A stretch of DNA of 64,000 nt from Polyangiaceae bacterium. Lineage in GTDB: Bacteria; Myxococcota_A; Polyangia; Polyangiales; Polyangiaceae. The DNA lies in assembly GCA_947475525.1 (NCBI GenBank), contig CANJMI010000004.1, forward strand, positions 62,001-126,000, written 5' to 3'. Made by a program: the position numbers and the translations under genes. The notes under the pieces were generated by a model. The model was given only the letters and a program-made list of their open reading frames with translations. It ran no database searches and had not been told where the DNA came from. Positions 37,574 through 62,822 of this stretch are shown here, piece by piece (position 1 is the first letter of the stretch; every line of letters starts with the position of its first letter).

Positions 37574-40500
37574 ATGTCTGCATTGACCGTCCGTAAGCAC
37601 GTTGCCATCGCGCTGGTTTCGGCAGCCGTAGTGCTGCTCCAAATTGCCGTGACCCGCATCCTGAGCGTGGTGCTCTGGTACCACTGGGCATTCTTCGCGA
37701 TCTCGTTGTCGATGCTCGGGATGGGGGCCCCGGGCGCTTGGCTCGCCTTGACGAAGCGCCGCCCCTCGCTCGATCGCGTGCTGCTTGCGGCGGGCATTCT
37801 CGTGCCGGTCGGCGTTGCCGCCATGGTCCGCGGCCAGCACCTGTTTGGCAACTTGGCGATCGTGTTTTGCATGCTCTGCCTCCTCCCGGCGCTCTTGTGC
37901 CTCGGCACGGCGGTGTGCCTCCTTCTCCTCGAGGCCGAAGGGCTCGCCGTCTCGAAAATGTATGGCTGCGATCTGCTCGGCGCGTGCCTCGGCGCGCTTT
38001 GCGTCGTGCCGCTGATGAACACGATAGGGACGCCCGAGCTTGCCGCGTGCGCGGGCTTTTTGCCGCTGCTCGCCCACGAACTCACCGCCCCCGAAGAGCG
38101 CCAGTGGATGGCCCGCGTCGCCGTGATCGCGCTCGGTGCGTCCATCGCGTGGGGTACGCCTTACCGCATCGAGTACACGAAGCTATACCGCGAAGAAGGC
38201 GCGCTTAAGCCGATGTTCGTGCGCTGGACGCCAACTGCCAGGCTTGCGGTATTTCGCTCGTTCCCGTGGTCCTCGGATGACTTCGGTTGGGGGCTTGGAA
38301 CGAAGGCTTCACCCGCCGCGGCCCCACAACAATATTGGCTCGAGCAAGACGCCTCGGCGGGAACACCCATCACCCGCTACGATGGCGACGACGCGAAGCT
38401 CGAGCACCTGAACTACGACGTCACGAGCGCGGTCTATCAACTGAAAAAACCGCGTTCCGTTGCGATCGTCGGAGCGGGTGGCGGGCGCGACATCCTCACC
38501 GCTCACCTCGCAGGAGCCGAGCACATCGATGCCATCGAGCTGAACGCGGGCATCGTCTCTGCGATGCGCGAGCAGTTCTCGGCGTTCAACGGCGGCGTGT
38601 ACGATCTACCGGGGGTAACTCCGATCGTCGGCGAGGGGCGCAGCGTGCTCACGCGCTCGACGGGCGGCTACGACGTCATCCAGATCTCGATGATCGACAG
38701 CTGGGCGGCGACGGCCGCGGGTGCGTACTCGCTCTCCGAAAACAATCTCTACACGGTGGAGGCATACCGTCTCTACTTCCAACGCCTTGCCCCGCGCGGC
38801 ATCGTCTCGACGAGCCGGTGGCTCGCCGTCGACTTCGGTTTCGAAGTACCGCGCCTGCTGCTGCTCGTGCGAACGGCGCTCCTCGCGGAAGGCGTAACCG
38901 AACCTATGCGGCACATCGCCGTGCTCGAAGCCGGCAAGGTCGCGAGCATCCTGATGTCACGCGCGCCGTTCACGACGGAAGACCTCACCGCGCTACGACA
39001 GGTAGCCGAGACTCGCGGCTTCACCGTCGCGCTTCCGGCAGCGCCCAACGCGCCGACGCGGCGCTCCCTCACCCAGCTCATCGACCGAGGAGTCGCGTCC
39101 TTCGAGCAACAGGGATTTTCGCTCGCGCCTCCGACCGACGACAAGCCTTTCTACTTTCAGATGCTCTCGCCCTTTCGACAGCCGAGCGCCGCCGTCGTCG
39201 ACAAACTCGGGGTGAACGCGCAGTCCGTTCGCACGCTGCGAACGCTCATGGTCGTGATGCTGCTCGTCACGCTCGCCTTGTTTTTTGCGCCATTTGCAGC
39301 AAAACGCAGGCTCGAACGATCCGCGGACTTTTGGTCCGGCAGCGGCTACTTCCTCACCATCGGGCTCGCGTTCATGTTGCTCGAGATAGGCTGGCTCCAG
39401 CGTTGCGTGCTCTACCTCGGCCATCCGAGTCTCGCGGCGACCGCGGCACTCGGCTTCATCCTGCTCGGGGCGGGCACAGGCTCGATGCTCTCGCGCACGG
39501 TATCCCTCGCGAAAGCCGAACGTCTCGGCTGGATCCTCGCCGTAGCGTGCGCGCTCGTGAACTTCGCGATGGGTCCCATCATGGATGCCACGCTCGGACT
39601 CACGTCGCTGATTCGTTTGCTCGTGACCGGCGTGATGCTCGTGCCGGCAGGCATGCTGATGGGCTTCGCATTCCCCCTCGGCATGCAGGCCTTCAGCGAG
39701 ACGAACAAGGCGTGGTTTTGGGCGATCAACGGCGCGGCGAGCGTGCTTGCCAGCGTCGCGTCGCTGGCCCTCGCGATGGAGTTCGGCTTCCGGTGCGTCG
39801 GCTACCTCGGCGCGGGACTCTACGTGCCAGCGTGGCTGCTTCTTCGCGAGCGGCACCGTGGCCGGGCACTACGCACCGCACTCGTGACTGCGTGCGCACT
39901 GCCCCTCGCGGTCGTCAGCGTATCGCAAGCGTGGGATCTTGTAACCGCGGTCGCATCGCGCATCCGCTACCCCATCGACCTCGAGTGGATGGAAGGCGGC
40001 CAACTCATCACGGCGCAGCGGCTGATGGAAGGAAAGCCCATCTACGAAGCCTGCGCCGACGGCTTCATTCCGTTCGCCTACCCGCCGGTTCATGCGGCTT
40101 TGGTCGCGCTCGCCGGCAAGCTCTTCGGACTATCGTACCCAATCGCCCGCGGGGTGAGCGTGCTTGGCATCACGTGCGCATTCGCGCTTCTTTGCCGCGA
40201 ATCCTTCTGGAGTGCACGGCGCGGCGCACGAGGCTTTTATGCCGCCCTCGTGACGCTTGGCTGGCTCGCCGCAAGCTATACCGTCTCGGGCGCCTGGTAC
40301 GACATCGTCCGCGTGGACGCGACCTGCATGGGTCTGCTCGTCGCAGGCATGGTGATGTCCCTGCCCGCGATGACCCAGTCGATTCGCGCTCGACTCAGCG
40401 TAGGCCGGTCGCTCGCGGCTGCGCTCTTGCTCACAGGCGCGATGTACTCGAAGCAGTCGGCCGTGTTGTTCATGCCGTGGATTCTCGCCTTCGCGGTGTG

Positions 40501-41848
40501 GCGTGAACATCGCAGCGGCCTCCGGCTAGCGGCATTCGTCGCGCTGCTCGCGGGTGGCGCACTTCTCGCGATGAACGCAGCGTCACACGGGCAATTTTGG
40601 ATCTTGGTCTTCGAGGTGATGGGGCGCCACCCGCTCTTGCCGGAGCTCTTCGGCATGGCGTTCGTGGCGCTGCTCTTCTACGCGCCGTACACCGCGCTTA
40701 TGCCCGTGGTGGTGGGATGGCTCGGACTAAAGCGGAAGCTTGCGGTACGCGTCGCATTTTGGAGCGGGGTCGCCCTGAATGCCCTTGTCGTGTCGCTTTT
40801 TACGTCCTCGAAAGTCGGCGCCTACATCAACAACATCATGACGGCGGCGATCTTTCTGCCGGTCGCAACGATCATGCTCGGGGGGGCGTGGCTCGACTCG
40901 ATGCCACGACGCGACCCGCGGAGGCCACTTCTCGCATCGGGCGCGGCACTCGTCCTAGGCTTTCTGCTCTCCACCCAGCACTTCGACTTTAACGCGATCA
41001 TTCCGGCCCCGCGTGAATGGACGCGAGCGCAAGCGCTCGTCGAGTTCGTGAGAGAGCTCCCCGGAACGGTGCTCTTTCCGGCGCACAGCTTCATCCCGTA
41101 CCTCGCCGGAAAATCGAGCCCGCAACTCCACGAGCAAGGCTACGTCGACGTGATCGGTGCAGGCGTCGAGTCGATCGACGTTGCCACCTGCGCGGCCAAC
41201 GTCAACGCGCGGTGGCTTATCACCAACGATAGGACCGAGCCTCACTTTCAACGGTTGCTCGAGGTGGCCTACGAGCCGCGGCGTGAGCTGCCGCCGTTCA
41301 TCAAGATGGTCATCGGAAAGTACACAAGTCCGACGCGCGTCTACGAACGACGCCCCGGCGATCCGTGGCAAGCCAACCGGCGCAACACGCGACGTCTCTT
41401 TGACTTCGAGTCGGGCACGCTTGGCGGCTGGGAGCGCACCGGCAAGGCCTTCGAACCTGGCGTCACCGAAGCGGTCCTTGAACACCAGCAACCGATCGTC
41501 GGACACCTAGGCCACTGGCTCGTCAACTCCTACCACCCGACGATACTCGACGCCGCCACAGGCTCGCTCACTTCGCCGCCATTCACGATCGACCGCTCCC
41601 GCCTTGGATTTCGCGCGGGCGGCGGTCCTTCAAAAAATCTCCGCATCGAATTGCTCATCGAGGGCAAGGCCGTGACTTCGCTTGCTGGACCCGGGCCTGG
41701 CGCCATCGAGATGTTGACGCCGACTACGTGGGACGTGACGGCATGGCGCGGCGCGACTGCCCAGCTCGTCATTCGTGATGACGAACCTGGCGAGTGGGGG
41801 CACGTGACTGTCGATGCCTTCGAGCTCTTCGACCTGCCTGGGACCTGA
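37574..41848 (+). CDS. Three-part membrane fusion: spermidine-synthase-like MTase, GT-C glycosyltransferase-like, C-terminal beta-sandwich
   Basis: 1424 residues in one uninterrupted frame. Part 1 (1-760): about 6 N-terminal hydrophobic helices, a SAM/spermidine-synthase fold with AIVGAGGGRDIL (298-308) and IELN (321-324), YSLSENNLYTVEAYRLYFQRL, then about 6 helices (557-757). Part 2 (765-1130): a polytopic GT-C-like region with a loop at 800-840 reading PIDLEWMEGGQLITAQRLM and FIPFAYPP. Part 3 (1276-1424): FDFESGTLGGWERTG and further beta strands, like a carbohydrate-binding or CIA30-type sandwich. ATG at 37574. It ends 7 bp before the Nudix gene. Substrates unknown; the parts are normally separate proteins. 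Confidence 0.82.
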   Translation: MSALTVRKHVAIALVSAAVVLLQIAVTRILSVVLWYHWAFFAISLSMLGMGAPGAWLALTKRRPSLDRVLLAAGILVPVGVAAMVRGQHLFGNLAIVFCMLCLLPALLCLGTAVCLLLLEAEGLAVSKMYGCDLLGACLGALCVVPLMNTIGTPELAACAGFLPLLAHELTAPEERQWMARVAVIALGASIAWGTPYRIEYTKLYREEGALKPMFVRWTPTARLAVFRSFPWSSDDFGWGLGTKASPAAAPQQYWLEQDASAGTPITRYDGDDAKLEHLNYDVTSAVYQLKKPRSVAIVGAGGGRDILTAHLAGAEHIDAIELNAGIVSAMREQFSAFNGGVYDLPGVTPIVGEGRSVLTRSTGGYDVIQISMIDSWAATAAGAYSLSENNLYTVEAYRLYFQRLAPRGIVSTSRWLAVDFGFEVPRLLLLVRTALLAEGVTEPMRHIAVLEAGKVASILMSRAPFTTEDLTALRQVAETRGFTVALPAAPNAPTRRSLTQLIDRGVASFEQQGFSLAPPTDDKPFYFQMLSPFRQPSAAVVDKLGVNAQSVRTLRTLMVVMLLVTLALFFAPFAAKRRLERSADFWSGSGYFLTIGLAFMLLEIGWLQRCVLYLGHPSLAATAALGFILLGAGTGSMLSRTVSLAKAERLGWILAVACALVNFAMGPIMDATLGLTSLIRLLVTGVMLVPAGMLMGFAFPLGMQAFSETNKAWFWAINGAASVLASVASLALAMEFGFRCVGYLGAGLYVPAWLLLRERHRGRALRTALVTACALPLAVVSVSQAWDLVTAVASRIRYPIDLEWMEGGQLITAQRLMEGKPIYEACADGFIPFAYPPVHAALVALAGKLFGLSYPIARGVSVLGITCAFALLCRESFWSARRGARGFYAALVTLGWLAASYTVSGAWYDIVRVDATCMGLLVAGMVMSLPAMTQSIRARLSVGRSLAAALLLTGAMYSKQSAVLFMPWILAFAVWREHRSGLRLAAFVALLAGGALLAMNAASHGQFWILVFEVMGRHPLLPELFGMAFVALLFYAPYTALMPVVVGWLGLKRKLAVRVAFWSGVALNALVVSLFTSSKVGAYINNIMTAAIFLPVATIMLGGAWLDSMPRRDPRRPLLASGAALVLGFLLSTQHFDFNAIIPAPREWTRAQALVEFVRELPGTVLFPAHSFIPYLAGKSSPQLHEQGYVDVIGAGVESIDVATCAANVNARWLITNDRTEPHFQRLLEVAYEPRRELPPFIKMVIGKYTSPTRVYERRPGDPWQANRRNTRRLFDFESGTLGGWERTGKAFEPGVTEAVLEHQQPIVGHLGHWLVNSYHPTILDAATGSLTSPPFTIDRSRLGFRAGGGPSKNLRIELLIEGKAVTSLAGPGPGAIEMLTPTTWDVTAWRGATAQLVIRDDEPGEWGHVTVDAFELFDLPGT

Positions 41849-41855
41849 CGCGCCG

Positions 41856-42260
41856 ATGGCCAACGTCATTCGGGTCGTCGGCGGTGCGGTCACGCGCGAT
41901 GGAACGTGGCTCGCGGCCCAACGCAGCGCCACCATGGCGGAACCGCTCGCGTGGGAATTCCCTGGCGGAAAGGTCGAGCCCGGCGAGAGCGACGAACGCG
42001 CCCTTGTCCGTGAACTCTACGAAGAGCTCGGCGTCGATGTCGTGACCGGCCCACGAATTGGGAGTTCGTCGGTCGCACGCGGTGATCGGGTGATCGAGCT
42101 CATCGTCTACGAAGCGTACCTCGCCCGCGGTGAACCCCTCGCTACGGAGCACGCAGCGCTTGGGTGGTTCGAGCCCGCGGAGCTCCGCGCCCTCGACTGG
42201 GCAGAAGCGGACATCCCGATCGTGAGTGCGCTTCTGACAAAGCTCGCGTCGCAGGGGTGA
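41856..42260 (+). CDS. Nudix hydrolase, MutT-like
   Basis: 134 residues with the full Nudix box GGKVEPGESDERALVRELYEELGV (read GX5EX7REUXEEXGU) at about 40-63, and RVVGGAVTRDG at the N-terminus. Size and style fit (deoxy)nucleotide triphosphate pyrophosphatases that clean oxidised nucleotides; substrate not determined. ATG at 41856 chosen; it follows the fusion gene by 7 bp and could share its transcript. Confidence 0.9.
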   Translation: MANVIRVVGGAVTRDGTWLAAQRSATMAEPLAWEFPGGKVEPGESDERALVRELYEELGVDVVTGPRIGSSSVARGDRVIELIVYEAYLARGEPLATEHAALGWFEPAELRALDWAEADIPIVSALLTKLASQG

Positions 42261-42300: not shown

Positions 42301-43728
42301 TCAGTTCGGCTCGGCGTCGGCCTCGCACTCCTCGTCCTCGAGTTTTTCGCGCGAGCCAATGCCCCATTCGCGCATCCGGTACTGAATCGTGCGGCGGCTG
42401 ATCCCGAGGATCACCGCAGCCTTGGATGGCGAGCCACCAACCGCGTCGAGGGTGCGTTGGATCGCGAAGCGCTCGAGCTCAGCGAGGGTCACGCCGGGGA
42501 TCATCAGCCGAACAGGTTCACTCTCGCGTAGTTCGCCGGCGATGGCGAGATCGTCCACGCCGACCGAAGCCGAGCCTGCCAGTACGACGGCCTGTTCGAT
42601 GATGTTCTGAAGCTCGCGCACGTTGCCCGGCCAAGGGTATGCCGCGAGCGCCTGCCTGGCCTCGTTCGTGAGGCCATCGATCTTCTTTTCATTTTCCGCT
42701 GCGTAGCGATGGAGAAAATGATTGGCGAGCAGCGGGACGTCGCTCGGGCGCGCGCGCAGTGGAGGGACCTCAAGACGAACGACGTTGAGGCGGTAGTAGA
42801 GGTCCTCTCGAAACGTTTGTTTCTCGAGCATGCTCTTGAGGTCGCGGTTGGTGGCCGCAACGACGCGCACGTCAACCTGCAAGGGCTCGTCTCCACCAAC
42901 TCGCTCGAACTCGCGCTCCTGAAGAAACCGCAAGAGCTTCACTTGAACGGACAGGGGGATCTCGCTGACTTCATCGAGAAACAACGTGCCGTGGTGCGCC
43001 TGCTCGAACCGCCCTTTGCGGCGACTAACAGCACCGGTGAAAGCGCCCCGCTCATGACCGAAGAGCTCGGATTCGAGGAGCGACTCCGAGAGCGCCGCAC
43101 AGTTGAGGCGCACGAACGGCCCGGAGCTTCGCTTCGAGTTCTGGTGGATCGCGGCGGCGATGAGCTCCTTGCCAGTGCCCGTTTCACCCTGGATGAGCAC
43201 CGTCGCGCGGCTTTGCGCAGCCTGATGCGCTTTGGCGAGGAGCTGCTGCATCAACGGATGAGACGCGACGATGCGGCCGAACTCACCTTGAGCGCCGCTT
43301 CGCTCGCAACGCGCAAGAGCGGAGGCATGCCGAGTCGCCTGGGCCTTCTCGCACGCCTGCCGCAACACGAGGGCAAGAGCGCTCGCGTTTACGGGGCGCG
43401 GAAGGCAATGACCCGCACCGCGCTTGACCGCTTCGACAACAGAGTCGACCGAGCCTTCGGCGGTGATGGCAACGATCGAAGTCACAGTACTCGCGCGGCG
43501 GGCCCGCAAAACGAGCTCGAGGCCGTTCGGATCCTCCGCATCGACTTGCACAAACACGACGTCCGTTGCGGGGTTCTCAAGCAACGCAAGAAACCCAGCC
43601 GTGTCCGACGCCGCCTCGACGACGTGCCCCGAATCCGCGAGCAGCCCCACGACGTGCTGCGAGAGCGATGCGTCGCTCGCTGCGATGAGAACCTGACTCA
43701 CTCGCTTACCCGCATCCGACGACAGCAT
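42301..43728 (-). CDS. Sigma-54-dependent activator with degenerate receiver domain
   Basis: 475 residues. A receiver-like domain (about 12-125) has lost key parts: no acidic pair in VLIAASDASL, only D63 in QVDAEDPNG, and the invariant Lys is Arg (R111-P112). The AAA+ domain has Walker A GETGTGKE (181-188), GAFTGA (228-233) for sigma-54 contact, LFLDEVSEIPLSVQVKLL, and a Fis-type helix-turn-helix SPSKAAVILGISRRTIQYRM. Function: activator of sigma-54 promoters, probably not phosphorylated. ATG at 43726-43728; GTG at 43699-43701 is possible. Divergent from the operon at 43855. Confidence 0.88.
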   Translation of the reverse strand: MLSSDAGKRVSQVLIAASDASLSQHVVGLLADSGHVVEAASDTAGFLALLENPATDVVFVQVDAEDPNGLELVLRARRASTVTSIVAITAEGSVDSVVEAVKRGAGHCLPRPVNASALALVLRQACEKAQATRHASALARCERSGAQGEFGRIVASHPLMQQLLAKAHQAAQSRATVLIQGETGTGKELIAAAIHQNSKRSSGPFVRLNCAALSESLLESELFGHERGAFTGAVSRRKGRFEQAHHGTLFLDEVSEIPLSVQVKLLRFLQEREFERVGGDEPLQVDVRVVAATNRDLKSMLEKQTFREDLYYRLNVVRLEVPPLRARPSDVPLLANHFLHRYAAENEKKIDGLTNEARQALAAYPWPGNVRELQNIIEQAVVLAGSASVGVDDLAIAGELRESEPVRLMIPGVTLAELERFAIQRTLDAVGGSPSKAAVILGISRRTIQYRMREWGIGSREKLEDEECEADAEPN

Positions 43729-43854
43729 GCCCGACGTCGCCGCGCGATACCAGCGACGCGTGAGTGGTCGCGCGCGCCCGCGTCTCCGCAATGTGCCCCA
43801 AACGTGTCCACTAGGAGAGCGAGGCCCAAGCCGCTAGTCTCCGGCGCGTCCATC

Positions 43855-45615
43855 ATGAACGTCGAGCACCCCGAGCCATCCGCCGAAGAAGCCGCGCGCA
43901 TCGCCGCCGCCCGTGACGTTCTCATGAAGCTCGACAAGGCCATACGCATGCGTCGCTTCTACGACGCGAACCACGACCTCGTGCGCCGATTCGAAGGTGA
44001 CTTGGTGACGACAGTCCGCGCCTTCTTCGAGAGCCACGGCGAGTTCTCGATCCGCGTTCGACCGACCTCGTTCGAGGTGGGCTCCTTCCCGATCAAAGCC
44101 GCGGAGTGCGATGAGTTCGCGCTTTCAGTTTTTCGGCAGGGGATCATCGCCCTCCGATTTCAAACGGCGCTAGGCGACGAGGAACTCGTGCGTTTTATCG
44201 AGCTTTGTGCGGCCGGACTGCATGCGAACATCGGAGAGACCGATGATCTTCCGACGCTTCTGTGGCGCGGGAACCTCACGCACATCCAGTACGCGGCGCC
44301 GGTCGGGTACACGGAAGATGACGGTTCGTTTCGCAGTGAAGACGACCTCTTCGTCGATCAAGAGTCCGTCAGTCAGGTGATCGGCGAGTCGCTCATGATC
44401 GACTTCGATCGACTCCCACCCGAGACACGCAAAGCCTACGAGGCGCGCGTCATCAAGCTGAAAGGCAACGACGACGAGCTCCCCGCGGACCTGCTGCAAG
44501 AGCGGTCTGCCGTCGCGAGCGAAACCACCCGCGAGCTTGCTCGTCGGACCTTCGAGGTCGTGCGCTCCGTGGTGTCGATGCGCTCGCGGGGACCGGACCT
44601 TTCGGCTGACGACATCCGGCGGCTCTTCCTCCACTTTCGAAAGCTGTTCATCGATTTCGCGGACATCGAAGGCCTCGTGTCTGTAGCGGAAGCGACCCAC
44701 CAGTTGCTCGAGTCACCGACGTCGTCGGCGGAGGACAAGGCCTCCCTTCAAACGATGCTCGAGCAACGCCTCGACGAAAAAGAGCTGACTGAAATGCTCT
44801 CCCGAGTGCCCGGCGGCACGGTCGGTAACCTCGACAAAGTTACGACGCTTCTCCGCGTCTTCGGAGGAAACGACCGAGCGATGATAGCGCGCCTCGCCGA
44901 TCTCGACGAGAGCGACGCGGGTCGCAGCGCCCTCGAACACGTCCTCGTTGAAGTCGCAGGTAGCGACCCCGAGTTCCTCAGCAACCGGTTCCGCGGGCAA
45001 GAAGGCAAGCGAGCGGTCGAGACCCTCGTTATGCTCGCTCAGGTCGACATCGCCCAAGCGCGGATGGCGGTCGCGGTTCGACTCCCCGGCGCGAGTGATG
45101 AGACGCAACTTGCATTGCTCGACGCCGTCCACCAGGTCCCGAACCTCCTCGACGTACGCATGCAAACGGCGCTGATCCGCCTCGCGTCGAAGGGCGAACC
45201 ACTCCGCGGGAGAATCCTCGAGAGCTTCGCTGTGCATCCGAGCGCGGCGACGGCGATCCGCGAAGCTACTCTCGAGTGGGTGAAAGATCCGGACTTCGAC
45301 GAATGGGGGCCGAAGACCGTCGAAGCCGCATTCCGCGTGATCGTCCTCGCAGGTGCAATAGAGCCGGCCATGCCGCTTTTCACGCAAATTCTGGAGCGAA
45401 AATCGCTCTTCGGCCGCAAACAGCTCGGTGAATTGAAGCTCGCCGTCGTGACCGCGCTTACGGCGAGCGACGAACCCGAGGCTCACGCACTCCTGCAACG
45501 TCACGGCGAAGGGAAAGACAAAGACTTGGCGGAAACATGCCGAGAGGCGCTCGAACGCATCGCCGCTGAACGCGCGCGCGGCACCCGACCGAGCAAGCAA
45601 GGGGACGGCTCGTGA
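43855..45615 (+). CDS. Conserved hypothetical protein upstream of HD-GYP gene
   Basis: 586 residues, unrecognised. It is largely helical with Glu/Asp/Ala/Leu-rich segments (about 250-560: VSVAEATHQLLES, TLVMLAQVDIAQARMAVAVR, VPNLLDVRMQTALIRLASKG) reminiscent of HEAT-like or ARM-like repeats; the first 220 residues contain MRRFYDANHDLVRRFEGDL and a beta-rich SIRVRPTSFEVG. Stop overlaps the GTG of the next gene (GTGA). The HD-GYP protein shares a similar N-terminal pattern, so the two may be partners. Confidence 0.78.
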   Translation: MNVEHPEPSAEEAARIAAARDVLMKLDKAIRMRRFYDANHDLVRRFEGDLVTTVRAFFESHGEFSIRVRPTSFEVGSFPIKAAECDEFALSVFRQGIIALRFQTALGDEELVRFIELCAAGLHANIGETDDLPTLLWRGNLTHIQYAAPVGYTEDDGSFRSEDDLFVDQESVSQVIGESLMIDFDRLPPETRKAYEARVIKLKGNDDELPADLLQERSAVASETTRELARRTFEVVRSVVSMRSRGPDLSADDIRRLFLHFRKLFIDFADIEGLVSVAEATHQLLESPTSSAEDKASLQTMLEQRLDEKELTEMLSRVPGGTVGNLDKVTTLLRVFGGNDRAMIARLADLDESDAGRSALEHVLVEVAGSDPEFLSNRFRGQEGKRAVETLVMLAQVDIAQARMAVAVRLPGASDETQLALLDAVHQVPNLLDVRMQTALIRLASKGEPLRGRILESFAVHPSAATAIREATLEWVKDPDFDEWGPKTVEAAFRVIVLAGAIEPAMPLFTQILERKSLFGRKQLGELKLAVVTALTASDEPEAHALLQRHGEGKDKDLAETCREALERIAAERARGTRPSKQGDGS

Positions 45616-61389: not shown

Positions 61390-62822
61390 GGCCCAGGTCC
61401 CCCGCGATCGAGGAAAAATGCTGGTCGTTTGTGATCGGCGGCACACGAAACGTCGAGCCCCTCCGCGCCGTCGCGGTCGAGGAATCGCTCCACGAGACGG
61501 GGAACGCAACCGCGCGCCATCACGCCATGGCCGGCCTGCGGAACGACGACGTGGGTGGACCGCGGCAATCGCGCGCGCAGCCGCTCCGCCCAGTGCGGTG
61601 GCGTCACGGGATCGAGCGCACCCGACAACAAGAGCGTCGGTACCCCGAGCTCCAACGGCAGCGGCGTGAGCGGCCGCGGGCGGACGGGCCACAACGCGCA
61701 CGCCTCACGAAACTCGTCGAGCAAGGTCGCGCCTAGCAGCGTCTTTCTTTCGGCCGCACGGTCGGCCTCCGTAAGGCGTGGAACATCTTCGGCGCAGGCG
61801 ATCGAGAACAAGAGCCCGAGACTCATCCCTTCGTCGGCCGAGTGAGACAATACGGCAGTTTGCGCGAGCAAACCCTGGAAAACCCCGCGTTCCACCTCCG
61901 AGAGCGTCATCGGTAAGAGCGCCGCGAGCTCCGGCGCGTAGAGAAGACTCCGCACGACGGAGGCCAGCCCGTTCCGCTCCATCACGACACGCAGCGGAGC
62001 GTCGCTGTCCGGGTGGCGCAACTCCAACGTAGTGGGGGCGCTCGCCAGTCGTTCGAGGAGCAACGCGTACTTGGCGCGCGCATCCGGAAACGCGGTGCGG
62101 CACGACGTGTCCGCGGCGCATTCCGTAAACAGCCCATCGAGCGCGGCCTCGCCATCGCGACCGAAACTTCCACCGAGGATGAGCTCCGGTGGCGCCACGG
62201 CATCGAGCACGAGCGACCGCACGCTCTCCGGAAACCGTCCCGCATAGGCAAGGGCCAAACGAGTCCCGTACGAGACGCCGAGCACATCGACAGCACCGTA
62301 GCCAAGCGACTTCCGAACAGCCTCGAGGTCGAGGACGAGCGCGTCGGTCCCAAACGCCTCGAGATTTTTCCCCGCGTGCAAAGGTGCGCATGCTCGCGCG
62401 GCAGCCACGAGCGATCCGCCGCGAAAGGCTTGCGCTAAGTCATCCACGACCGGGCAATCGAGGGGCGCACTCTCGCCGGTCCCTCGAACATCGACCATCA
62501 CGAGGTCATGCGTCTCCGCGACGGACGCGAGCACCGGCCAAAGCTTAGGAAACGCTACGGTCGCCGCTTGCCCGGGTCCTCCTGCAAGCAAGAAAAGCGC
62601 CCGCCGCTCGCCCCCCGTCGACCGCGCCGGAACGCGAACGACATGCAGGCCGAGTTGCTTCGACGCGCCCGGAACTTCAGCCACCGTCACCGTCCCGCAC
62701 TCCGCCTCGCGTGGAACCCCGCGGACGACGCACGACCCGAGAGGGGAGTTCTCGACGGCGCTGCGACGATCGGTGCAGCCCCAAAAAGCGAGGGCAAACG
62801 AGATCCACGCGCGCGCCACCAT
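61386..62822 (-). CDS. Secreted alpha/beta hydrolase lipoprotein (TAP-like)
   Basis: 478 residues from ATG at 62820-62822. Lipobox LAFWGC, then ALFLLAGGPGQAATVAF, VMVDVRGTGES, nucleophile elbow GVSYGTRLALAYAGRFP, DPVTPPHWAERLRA (Asp) and QAGHGVMARGC (His): triad complete. Same architecture as prolyl aminopeptidase/TAP-like exported peptidases. It is followed by natA-natB, so the peptides it releases could feed or be cleared by that exporter, by inference. Confidence 0.87.
   Translation of the reverse strand: MVARAWISFALAFWGCTDRRSAVENSPLGSCVVRGVPREAECGTVTVAEVPGASKQLGLHVVRVPARSTGGERRALFLLAGGPGQAATVAFPKLWPVLASVAETHDLVMVDVRGTGESAPLDCPVVDDLAQAFRGGSLVAAARACAPLHAGKNLEAFGTDALVLDLEAVRKSLGYGAVDVLGVSYGTRLALAYAGRFPESVRSLVLDAVAPPELILGGSFGRDGEAALDGLFTECAADTSCRTAFPDARAKYALLLERLASAPTTLELRHPDSDAPLRVVMERNGLASVVRSLLYAPELAALLPMTLSEVERGVFQGLLAQTAVLSHSADEGMSLGLLFSIACAEDVPRLTEADRAAERKTLLGATLLDEFREACALWPVRPRPLTPLPLELGVPTLLLSGALDPVTPPHWAERLRARLPRSTHVVVPQAGHGVMARGCVPRLVERFLDRDGAEGLDVSCAADHKRPAFFLDRGGPGP

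Follow-up and report, generated by a model that had tools for sequence, protein, structure and literature searches.

A myxobacterial gene joining a transporter-like protein with a spermidine-synthase fold to a likely GT-C glycosyltransferase

How did one gene of a Polyangiaceae bacterium come to combine a spermidine-synthase-like domain with a membrane glycosyltransferase-like region, and what might its product do? The gene lies at 37574..41848 on the plus strand of a 64,000-nucleotide stretch of DNA (hereafter the window; positions 62,001 to 126,000 of contig CANJMI010000004.1, assembly GCA_947475525.1); the coordinates of all its parts below refer to that strand. Its 1424-codon open frame runs from an ATG at 37574, placed as in the orthologues, to a stop codon ending at 41848. 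An earlier note on this DNA had described a continuous frame in which three partners meet, namely a spermidine-synthase-like fold, a GT-C-like membrane region and a C-terminal carbohydrate-binding-like sandwich. The continuity is borne out by the open frame and by uninterrupted orthologues, and the landmarks lie where the note had put them: GAGGGRD at residues 300-306, an acidic GT-C-type loop from residue 802 (DLEWMEGG) and a beta-rich end at 1276-1424. However, judged by its homologues, the protein is a two-part and not a three-part fusion, of residues 1-757 (part one) and about 760-1424 (part two), because in homologues that are separate proteins the sandwich is attached to the GT-C part. 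It is thus the usual tail of the glycosyltransferase, and a composition of three independent modules was rejected.

We propose, with a probability of roughly 0.4, that the product is one inner-membrane protein in which sugar transfer of the GT-C type is coupled to a modification of the S-adenosylmethionine (SAM) type on one envelope glycan; in this proposal we infer both the topology and the chemistry.

A fusion kept throughout one genus

We searched for the fusion in the window's genus (five species) and in about 590 other Myxococcota genomes, with few candidates per genome being scored. Each of the five species in the genus has the full fusion, at whole-protein identities of 100% (the window's own), 76% (G001), 62% (G003), 53% (G004) and 52% (G002); the four orthologues are free of stop codons and extend from residue 1, 2 or 7 to residue 1420 or 1424. 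Among the matches listed from the other genomes no fused copy was seen, although a strongly diverged fusion could escape. The homologues there stop at about residue 751-790 or start at about residue 759-793, and their frames have the usual length of the respective half. The note's view of the fusion as unusual therefore stands. Its proposed check, whether homologues split at about residue 760, has a divided outcome: they do so outside the genus, but all five species within it keep the fused order, so that the fusion is a derived state rather than an artefact.

The split at about residue 760 outside the genus is indeed what one would expect if a sequencing or assembly error had joined two genes, and the earlier note had allowed for a frameshift at the joint. 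It is, however, hardly conceivable that such an error explains the frame, as the orthologues already refute it: five independent assemblies, 24-48% divergent, all read through, and the indel at the joint amounts to at most one residue. The joint itself is a basic stretch (RERHRGR..., residues 758-766, 39845..39871), predicted to be cytoplasmic, at which the homologues from outside the genus end or begin. Codon-position GC is coding-like over the whole gene, with no break at the joint. The dN/dS ratios against G001 were 0.11-0.13 for the first part, 0.17 for the linker (residues 745-790) and 0.16 for both the GT-C region and the sandwich, values that are approximate because dS is about 1 or more. 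At the sequence level, they indicate purifying selection across all parts, the joint included.

In trees of the two halves, the five fused proteins formed one clade (support 100/99) and branched identically, as ((G004,G002),(G003,(G000,G001))), G000 being the window's genome. The nearest outside relatives in both trees came from G027 and G084, whose genomes carry the two parts as separate genes. Since the fused proteins form a single clade with the same order in both trees, the phylogeny argues for one fusion event, inherited by every known species of the genus.

Several other candidates were considered and rejected. A match in G295 (residues 2-954, with one TAA inside) looked like a head-to-tail precursor, and the next gene, 6 bases downstream, is polytopic; it is not a detectable relative of part two. 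Long frames in G069 and L035 have upstream stretches of non-coding codon composition, those in G006 and G279 have upstream stretches without homology, and all four are likely chance open frames. At L106:5164-9327, a first-part gene is followed after 6 bases, in the same frame, by an unrelated polytopic gene with an LDDY motif that is GT-C-like by eye.

The first part and its inserted domain

When the whole 1424-residue protein was compared with Pfam and NCBIfam, no family scored over its cut-off, and there were only weak spermidine-synthase matches at about residues 283-413 (PF01564, 19.3 bits, under the cut-off of 22.9). Structure prediction was more informative. The model of residues 1-761, built from an alignment of 5 sequences (pLDDT 75.8, pTM 0.81), resembled SV2A (Z 28.9, 3.6 Å over 331 residues), FLVCR2 (Z 26.2, 3.5 Å over 341 residues) and NorC (Z 23.4), all transporters of the major facilitator superfamily (MFS). 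Residues 200-549 (38171..39220) in turn matched the aminopropyltransferase structure 1uir (Z 21.6, 3.1 Å, 264 residues aligned; Foldseek 1.1e-07). On this model, part one is an MFS-like fold with a spermidine-synthase-fold domain in its middle. Alignment hydropathy gave seven hydrophobic segments on each side of the inserted domain, and both membrane parts were also seen in the model and in the MFS matches: residues 9-197 (37598..38164) would form the first MFS-like half plus one extra helix, and residues 551-757 (39224..39844) one extra helix plus the second half. This 7 + 7 pattern fits a predicted 14-helix MFS protein with the domain placed between the two extra helices. The overall fold predicted for this transporter-like part is that of SV2A, FLVCR2 and NorC, but part one is only about 10% identical to them and bears an inserted enzyme-fold domain. 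The soluble N-terminal domain with a spermidine-synthase fold described in the earlier note is borne out by the match to 1uir, but the complete MFS-type membrane part around it had been overlooked.

A known family, MFS_SpdSyn (NF037959 of NCBIfam, fused MFS/spermidine synthase), likewise joins an MFS-type membrane part to a spermidine-synthase-like domain. Its model did not match the window protein, and two other loci of the same genome scored above its cut-off (contigs C2:93933-95915 and C7:183905-185929). The synthase part comes after the membrane parts in the C7 protein, whereas it is inserted between them in the window protein. At L101:9114-14549, two first-part paralogues lie in tandem on one strand.

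Could the inserted domain be an aminopropyltransferase? In these enzymes, the Asp or Glu of GxG(D/E)G is the position for decarboxylated SAM. Profile alignment to 1uir places the Glu of its GGGEG motif opposite a Gly of GAGGG in the nucleotide loop GAGGGRD (residues 300-306, 38471..38491; alignment A2), and a Gly occupies this position across an alignment of 20 homologues. The first Asp of IIDLTD corresponds to S372 and the second to D375, which is invariant (S372-D375, 38687..38698). Elsewhere in the nucleoside pocket, GxGGGRD, E322 and R356 hardly vary among the same 20 sequences. By its conserved residues, the domain thus retains a SAM-type nucleoside pocket, and it shares fold and nucleoside-binding positions with spermidine synthases and other polyamine aminopropyltransferases (PF01564; 1uir), from which it differs in the missing GxG(D/E)G acid, the Ser at the first catalytic Asp and the sub-cut-off Pfam score. 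Because both signature acids are replaced, it is unlikely to be an aminopropyltransferase, and a canonical one was rejected. For the same reason, the aminopropyltransferase motifs claimed in the earlier note were too generous a reading, and the polyamine decoration it suggested is unlikely.

Our preferred guess for the domain is methyl transfer, because NHMT shows the same missing acid in a similar layout. NHMT is a fungal N-terminal histidine methyltransferase with a 7-TM region followed by a spermidine-synthase-like domain; it acts on secreted proteins in the endoplasmic reticulum, and the missing GxG(D/E)G acid was used to set it apart from spermidine synthases (PMC10349129). The likeness, which is one of layout and description, covers seven membrane segments followed by a synthase-like domain lacking that acid. 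NHMT differs in having neither the second membrane half nor a glycosyltransferase, and its 7-TM region has been reported only in filamentous fungi (PMC10349129). Our literature search on myxobacterial membrane spermidine-synthase-like proteins, and on extracytoplasmic methyltransferases that use SAM and come with a SAM transporter, returned nothing on point but NHMT.

It is possible, if doubtful, that no SAM chemistry takes place at all: the transporter-like part would be an envelope flippase or transporter, the inserted domain a non-catalytic ligand-binding or regulatory element, and a lipid-linked sugar or acceptor would be handed to the GT-C part. The strong MFS fold match and the change of both signature acids are compatible with this, and such a hand-over fits a fusion to a membrane glycosyltransferase. 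A dead domain, however, would not need GxGGGRD, E322, R356 and D375, which vary little or not at all across 20 diverse sequences.

On which face of the membrane would a SAM-type domain work? In all 20 sequences, positive residues favour the inner loops, with 6-14 against 1-3 in the outer loops for the first half of part one, and for its second half 7-14 against 2-5. This charge pattern alone does not decide whether the two segments flanking the domain span the membrane. Segment 558-576 is among the most hydrophobic in the first part, segment 179-197 is only moderately hydrophobic, and the predicted model has separate membrane-length helices on each side of the domain. We favour a predicted outer-face location because 558-576 is so strongly hydrophobic and because the model keeps the flanking helices separate. 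If instead neither segment spanned the membrane, the domain would be cytoplasmic and would modify a lipid-linked precursor with cytoplasmic SAM, the MFS-like part would flip the precursor and the GT-C part would use it. The cytoplasmic location of SAM and the modest hydrophobicity of 179-197 make this arrangement attractive, and the inner loops beside both segments are basic under either topology, so that charge alone leaves it undecided; we nevertheless consider it rather unlikely in view of segment 558-576 and the two flanking helices of the model.

The second part and its tail

Part two (residues 761-1424) has homologues that are separate proteins, some of about 660-700 aa with the same tail and others of about 500 aa without it. 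Its polytopic region, delimited by hydropathy, comprises residues 769-1137 (39878..40984). Three motifs are conserved in the alignment: (D)x(E/D)WxE in the first outer loop, here DLEWMEG (residues 802-808, 39977..39997), in which E804 is always acidic and E807 invariant; a YDLVRVD-type stretch, here YDIVRVD (residues 909-915, 40298..40318), in which D910, R913 and D915 are invariant; and KQ(T/S), here KQS (KQT in the family; residues 960-962, 40451..40459), whose K960 is retained in the fused copies. Similar motifs, namely DD/DE, RxD and KE(T/Q), are described for the GT-C/PMT clan (PMC7801869). The PMT_2 family (PF13231) did not match the window protein; two of 18 relatives reached 22.3-22.7 bits against a cut-off of 26.1, in matches that start at a YPP stretch. 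Part two thus shares with GT-C enzymes of the PMT/ArnT clan (PMT_2, ArnT, TMTC) the polytopic region and the acidic first-outer-loop, RxD and lysine motifs, but it scores under the Pfam cut-offs, and its GT-C fold is putative. Together, motifs and hydropathy make part two a likely GT-C glycosyltransferase, and the earlier note was probably right about this region.

The beta-rich tail (residues 1276-1424, 41399..41845; alignment A5) had no sequence match in Pfam or PDB, carbohydrate-binding modules included. It recurs at the C-terminus of GT-C proteins of the part-two type, of AftB-like proteins (L086, L088) and of proteins of about 1060 aa (L105; L087), one of which has a weak TPR match. Because of this recurrence, the sandwich looks like an accessory domain, putatively at the outer face, that is general to the membrane glycosyltransferases of these bacteria. 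It is an unnamed module of about 145 residues common to at least three kinds of myxobacterial polytopic GT-C-like proteins, two of them AftB-related. The AftB-like set itself matches AftB (PDB 9dlf) with an E-value of 6.9e-27; its myxobacterial members bear the same C-terminal sandwich as the window protein, but part two has a different membrane sequence.

AftB-like GT-C genes were also observed within a few kb of separate second-part genes (L048, L090, L091, L092, L093, L107, L109 and L110), a recurrent proximity that suggests paired glycosyltransferase clusters. At L049:2847-5925, two tail-less second-part genes in tandem adjoin an AftB-like gene.

A possible joint role at the cell envelope

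Because the join is real and has been inherited by every known species of the genus, we suggest that the two parts cooperate and work together on the cell envelope, where both of the fused proteins probably act. In our proposal, two older, independent membrane proteins were fused once into a single inner-membrane protein. On the outer face, the GT-C part would draw its sugar from a polyprenyl-phosphate carrier and attach it to an envelope glycan or lipid, with the tail domain positioning the acceptor. The 14-helix transporter-like part would hold the SAM-fold domain on this face as well, and that domain would modify the same product with a group derived from SAM, most likely a methyl, so that the fusion would couple sugar transfer with capping. 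The substrates, and the activity of both parts on one product, are what we infer here.

Several observations weigh against this proposal. The GT-C call relies on motifs, hydropathy and sub-threshold Pfam matches; the model of residues 761-1424 (pLDDT 42.8, from a 3-sequence alignment) is too poor to show a fold, and the part-two profile matched the AftB-like set weakly (probability 25%, E 7.8e-4). In the inserted domain, G003 diverges more and has Ala, not Ser, at position 372. An outer-face SAM enzyme would need a supply of SAM, which is normally found in the cytoplasm. Finally, in the sister genomes G027 and G084 the separate genes most similar to the two halves sit on different contigs, and of 10 close separate first-part genes only 2 have a GT-C gene as neighbour. 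In G027, a second-part paralogue lies about 1 kb from a separate first-part gene, in divergent orientation; in G108, an AftB-like gene lies directly upstream of such a gene on the same strand. These neighbours lend modest support to a shared process. At L096:8781-12876, a first-part gene has an AftB-like GT-C gene directly before it in the same orientation.

A joint without functional meaning, that is, a chance fusion of unrelated genes kept as each part was still needed, would agree with this scattering of the separate halves in G027 and G084 and with the occurrence of close first-part homologues in genomes that lack a close second part. We regard it as improbable, as the fusion has survived divergence to 52% identity and a changed gene neighbourhood and has been re-split in no sampled species of the genus. 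More improbable still, and a long shot among these ideas, is that the MFS-like part carries SAM over the inner membrane to its own outer-face methyltransferase domain, which would modify or cap the product of the fused GT-C part.

The fusion lies in two different gene neighbourhoods. Three species share the order acyltransferase, unknown, ThiD, trypsin-like protease, fusion and Nudix (the acyltransferase was not called in G003), and the other two have a different neighbourhood, common to both. Because the ThiD/trypsin-like/Nudix neighbourhood is common to three species and absent around the fusion in the other two, gene order gives no ground for taking it as functional. In the window, the Nudix gene (41814-42260) likely starts at ATG 41856, just past the stop codon of the fusion, rather than at 41814. 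Further downstream, a minus-strand frame (42301-43791) overlaps a plus-strand frame of 968 aa (42709-45615); since the former matches a complete sigma-54 response regulator (Sigma54_activat, 9.2e-75), the latter probably begins further downstream.

MFS-like proteins with an inserted spermidine-synthase-fold domain form a large, unnamed family, present in many of the sampled Myxococcota genomes and often in several copies. Since they lack the signature acids, members that would be annotated as spermidine synthases are probably not polyamine makers. A domain working on the outer face would raise the question of how SAM reaches it; should the SAM-carrying idea hold, a single polypeptide would combine extracytoplasmic, SAM-dependent glycan modification with a built-in cofactor supply. 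Gene fusions point to functional links, and this one ties the family to envelope glycosylation.

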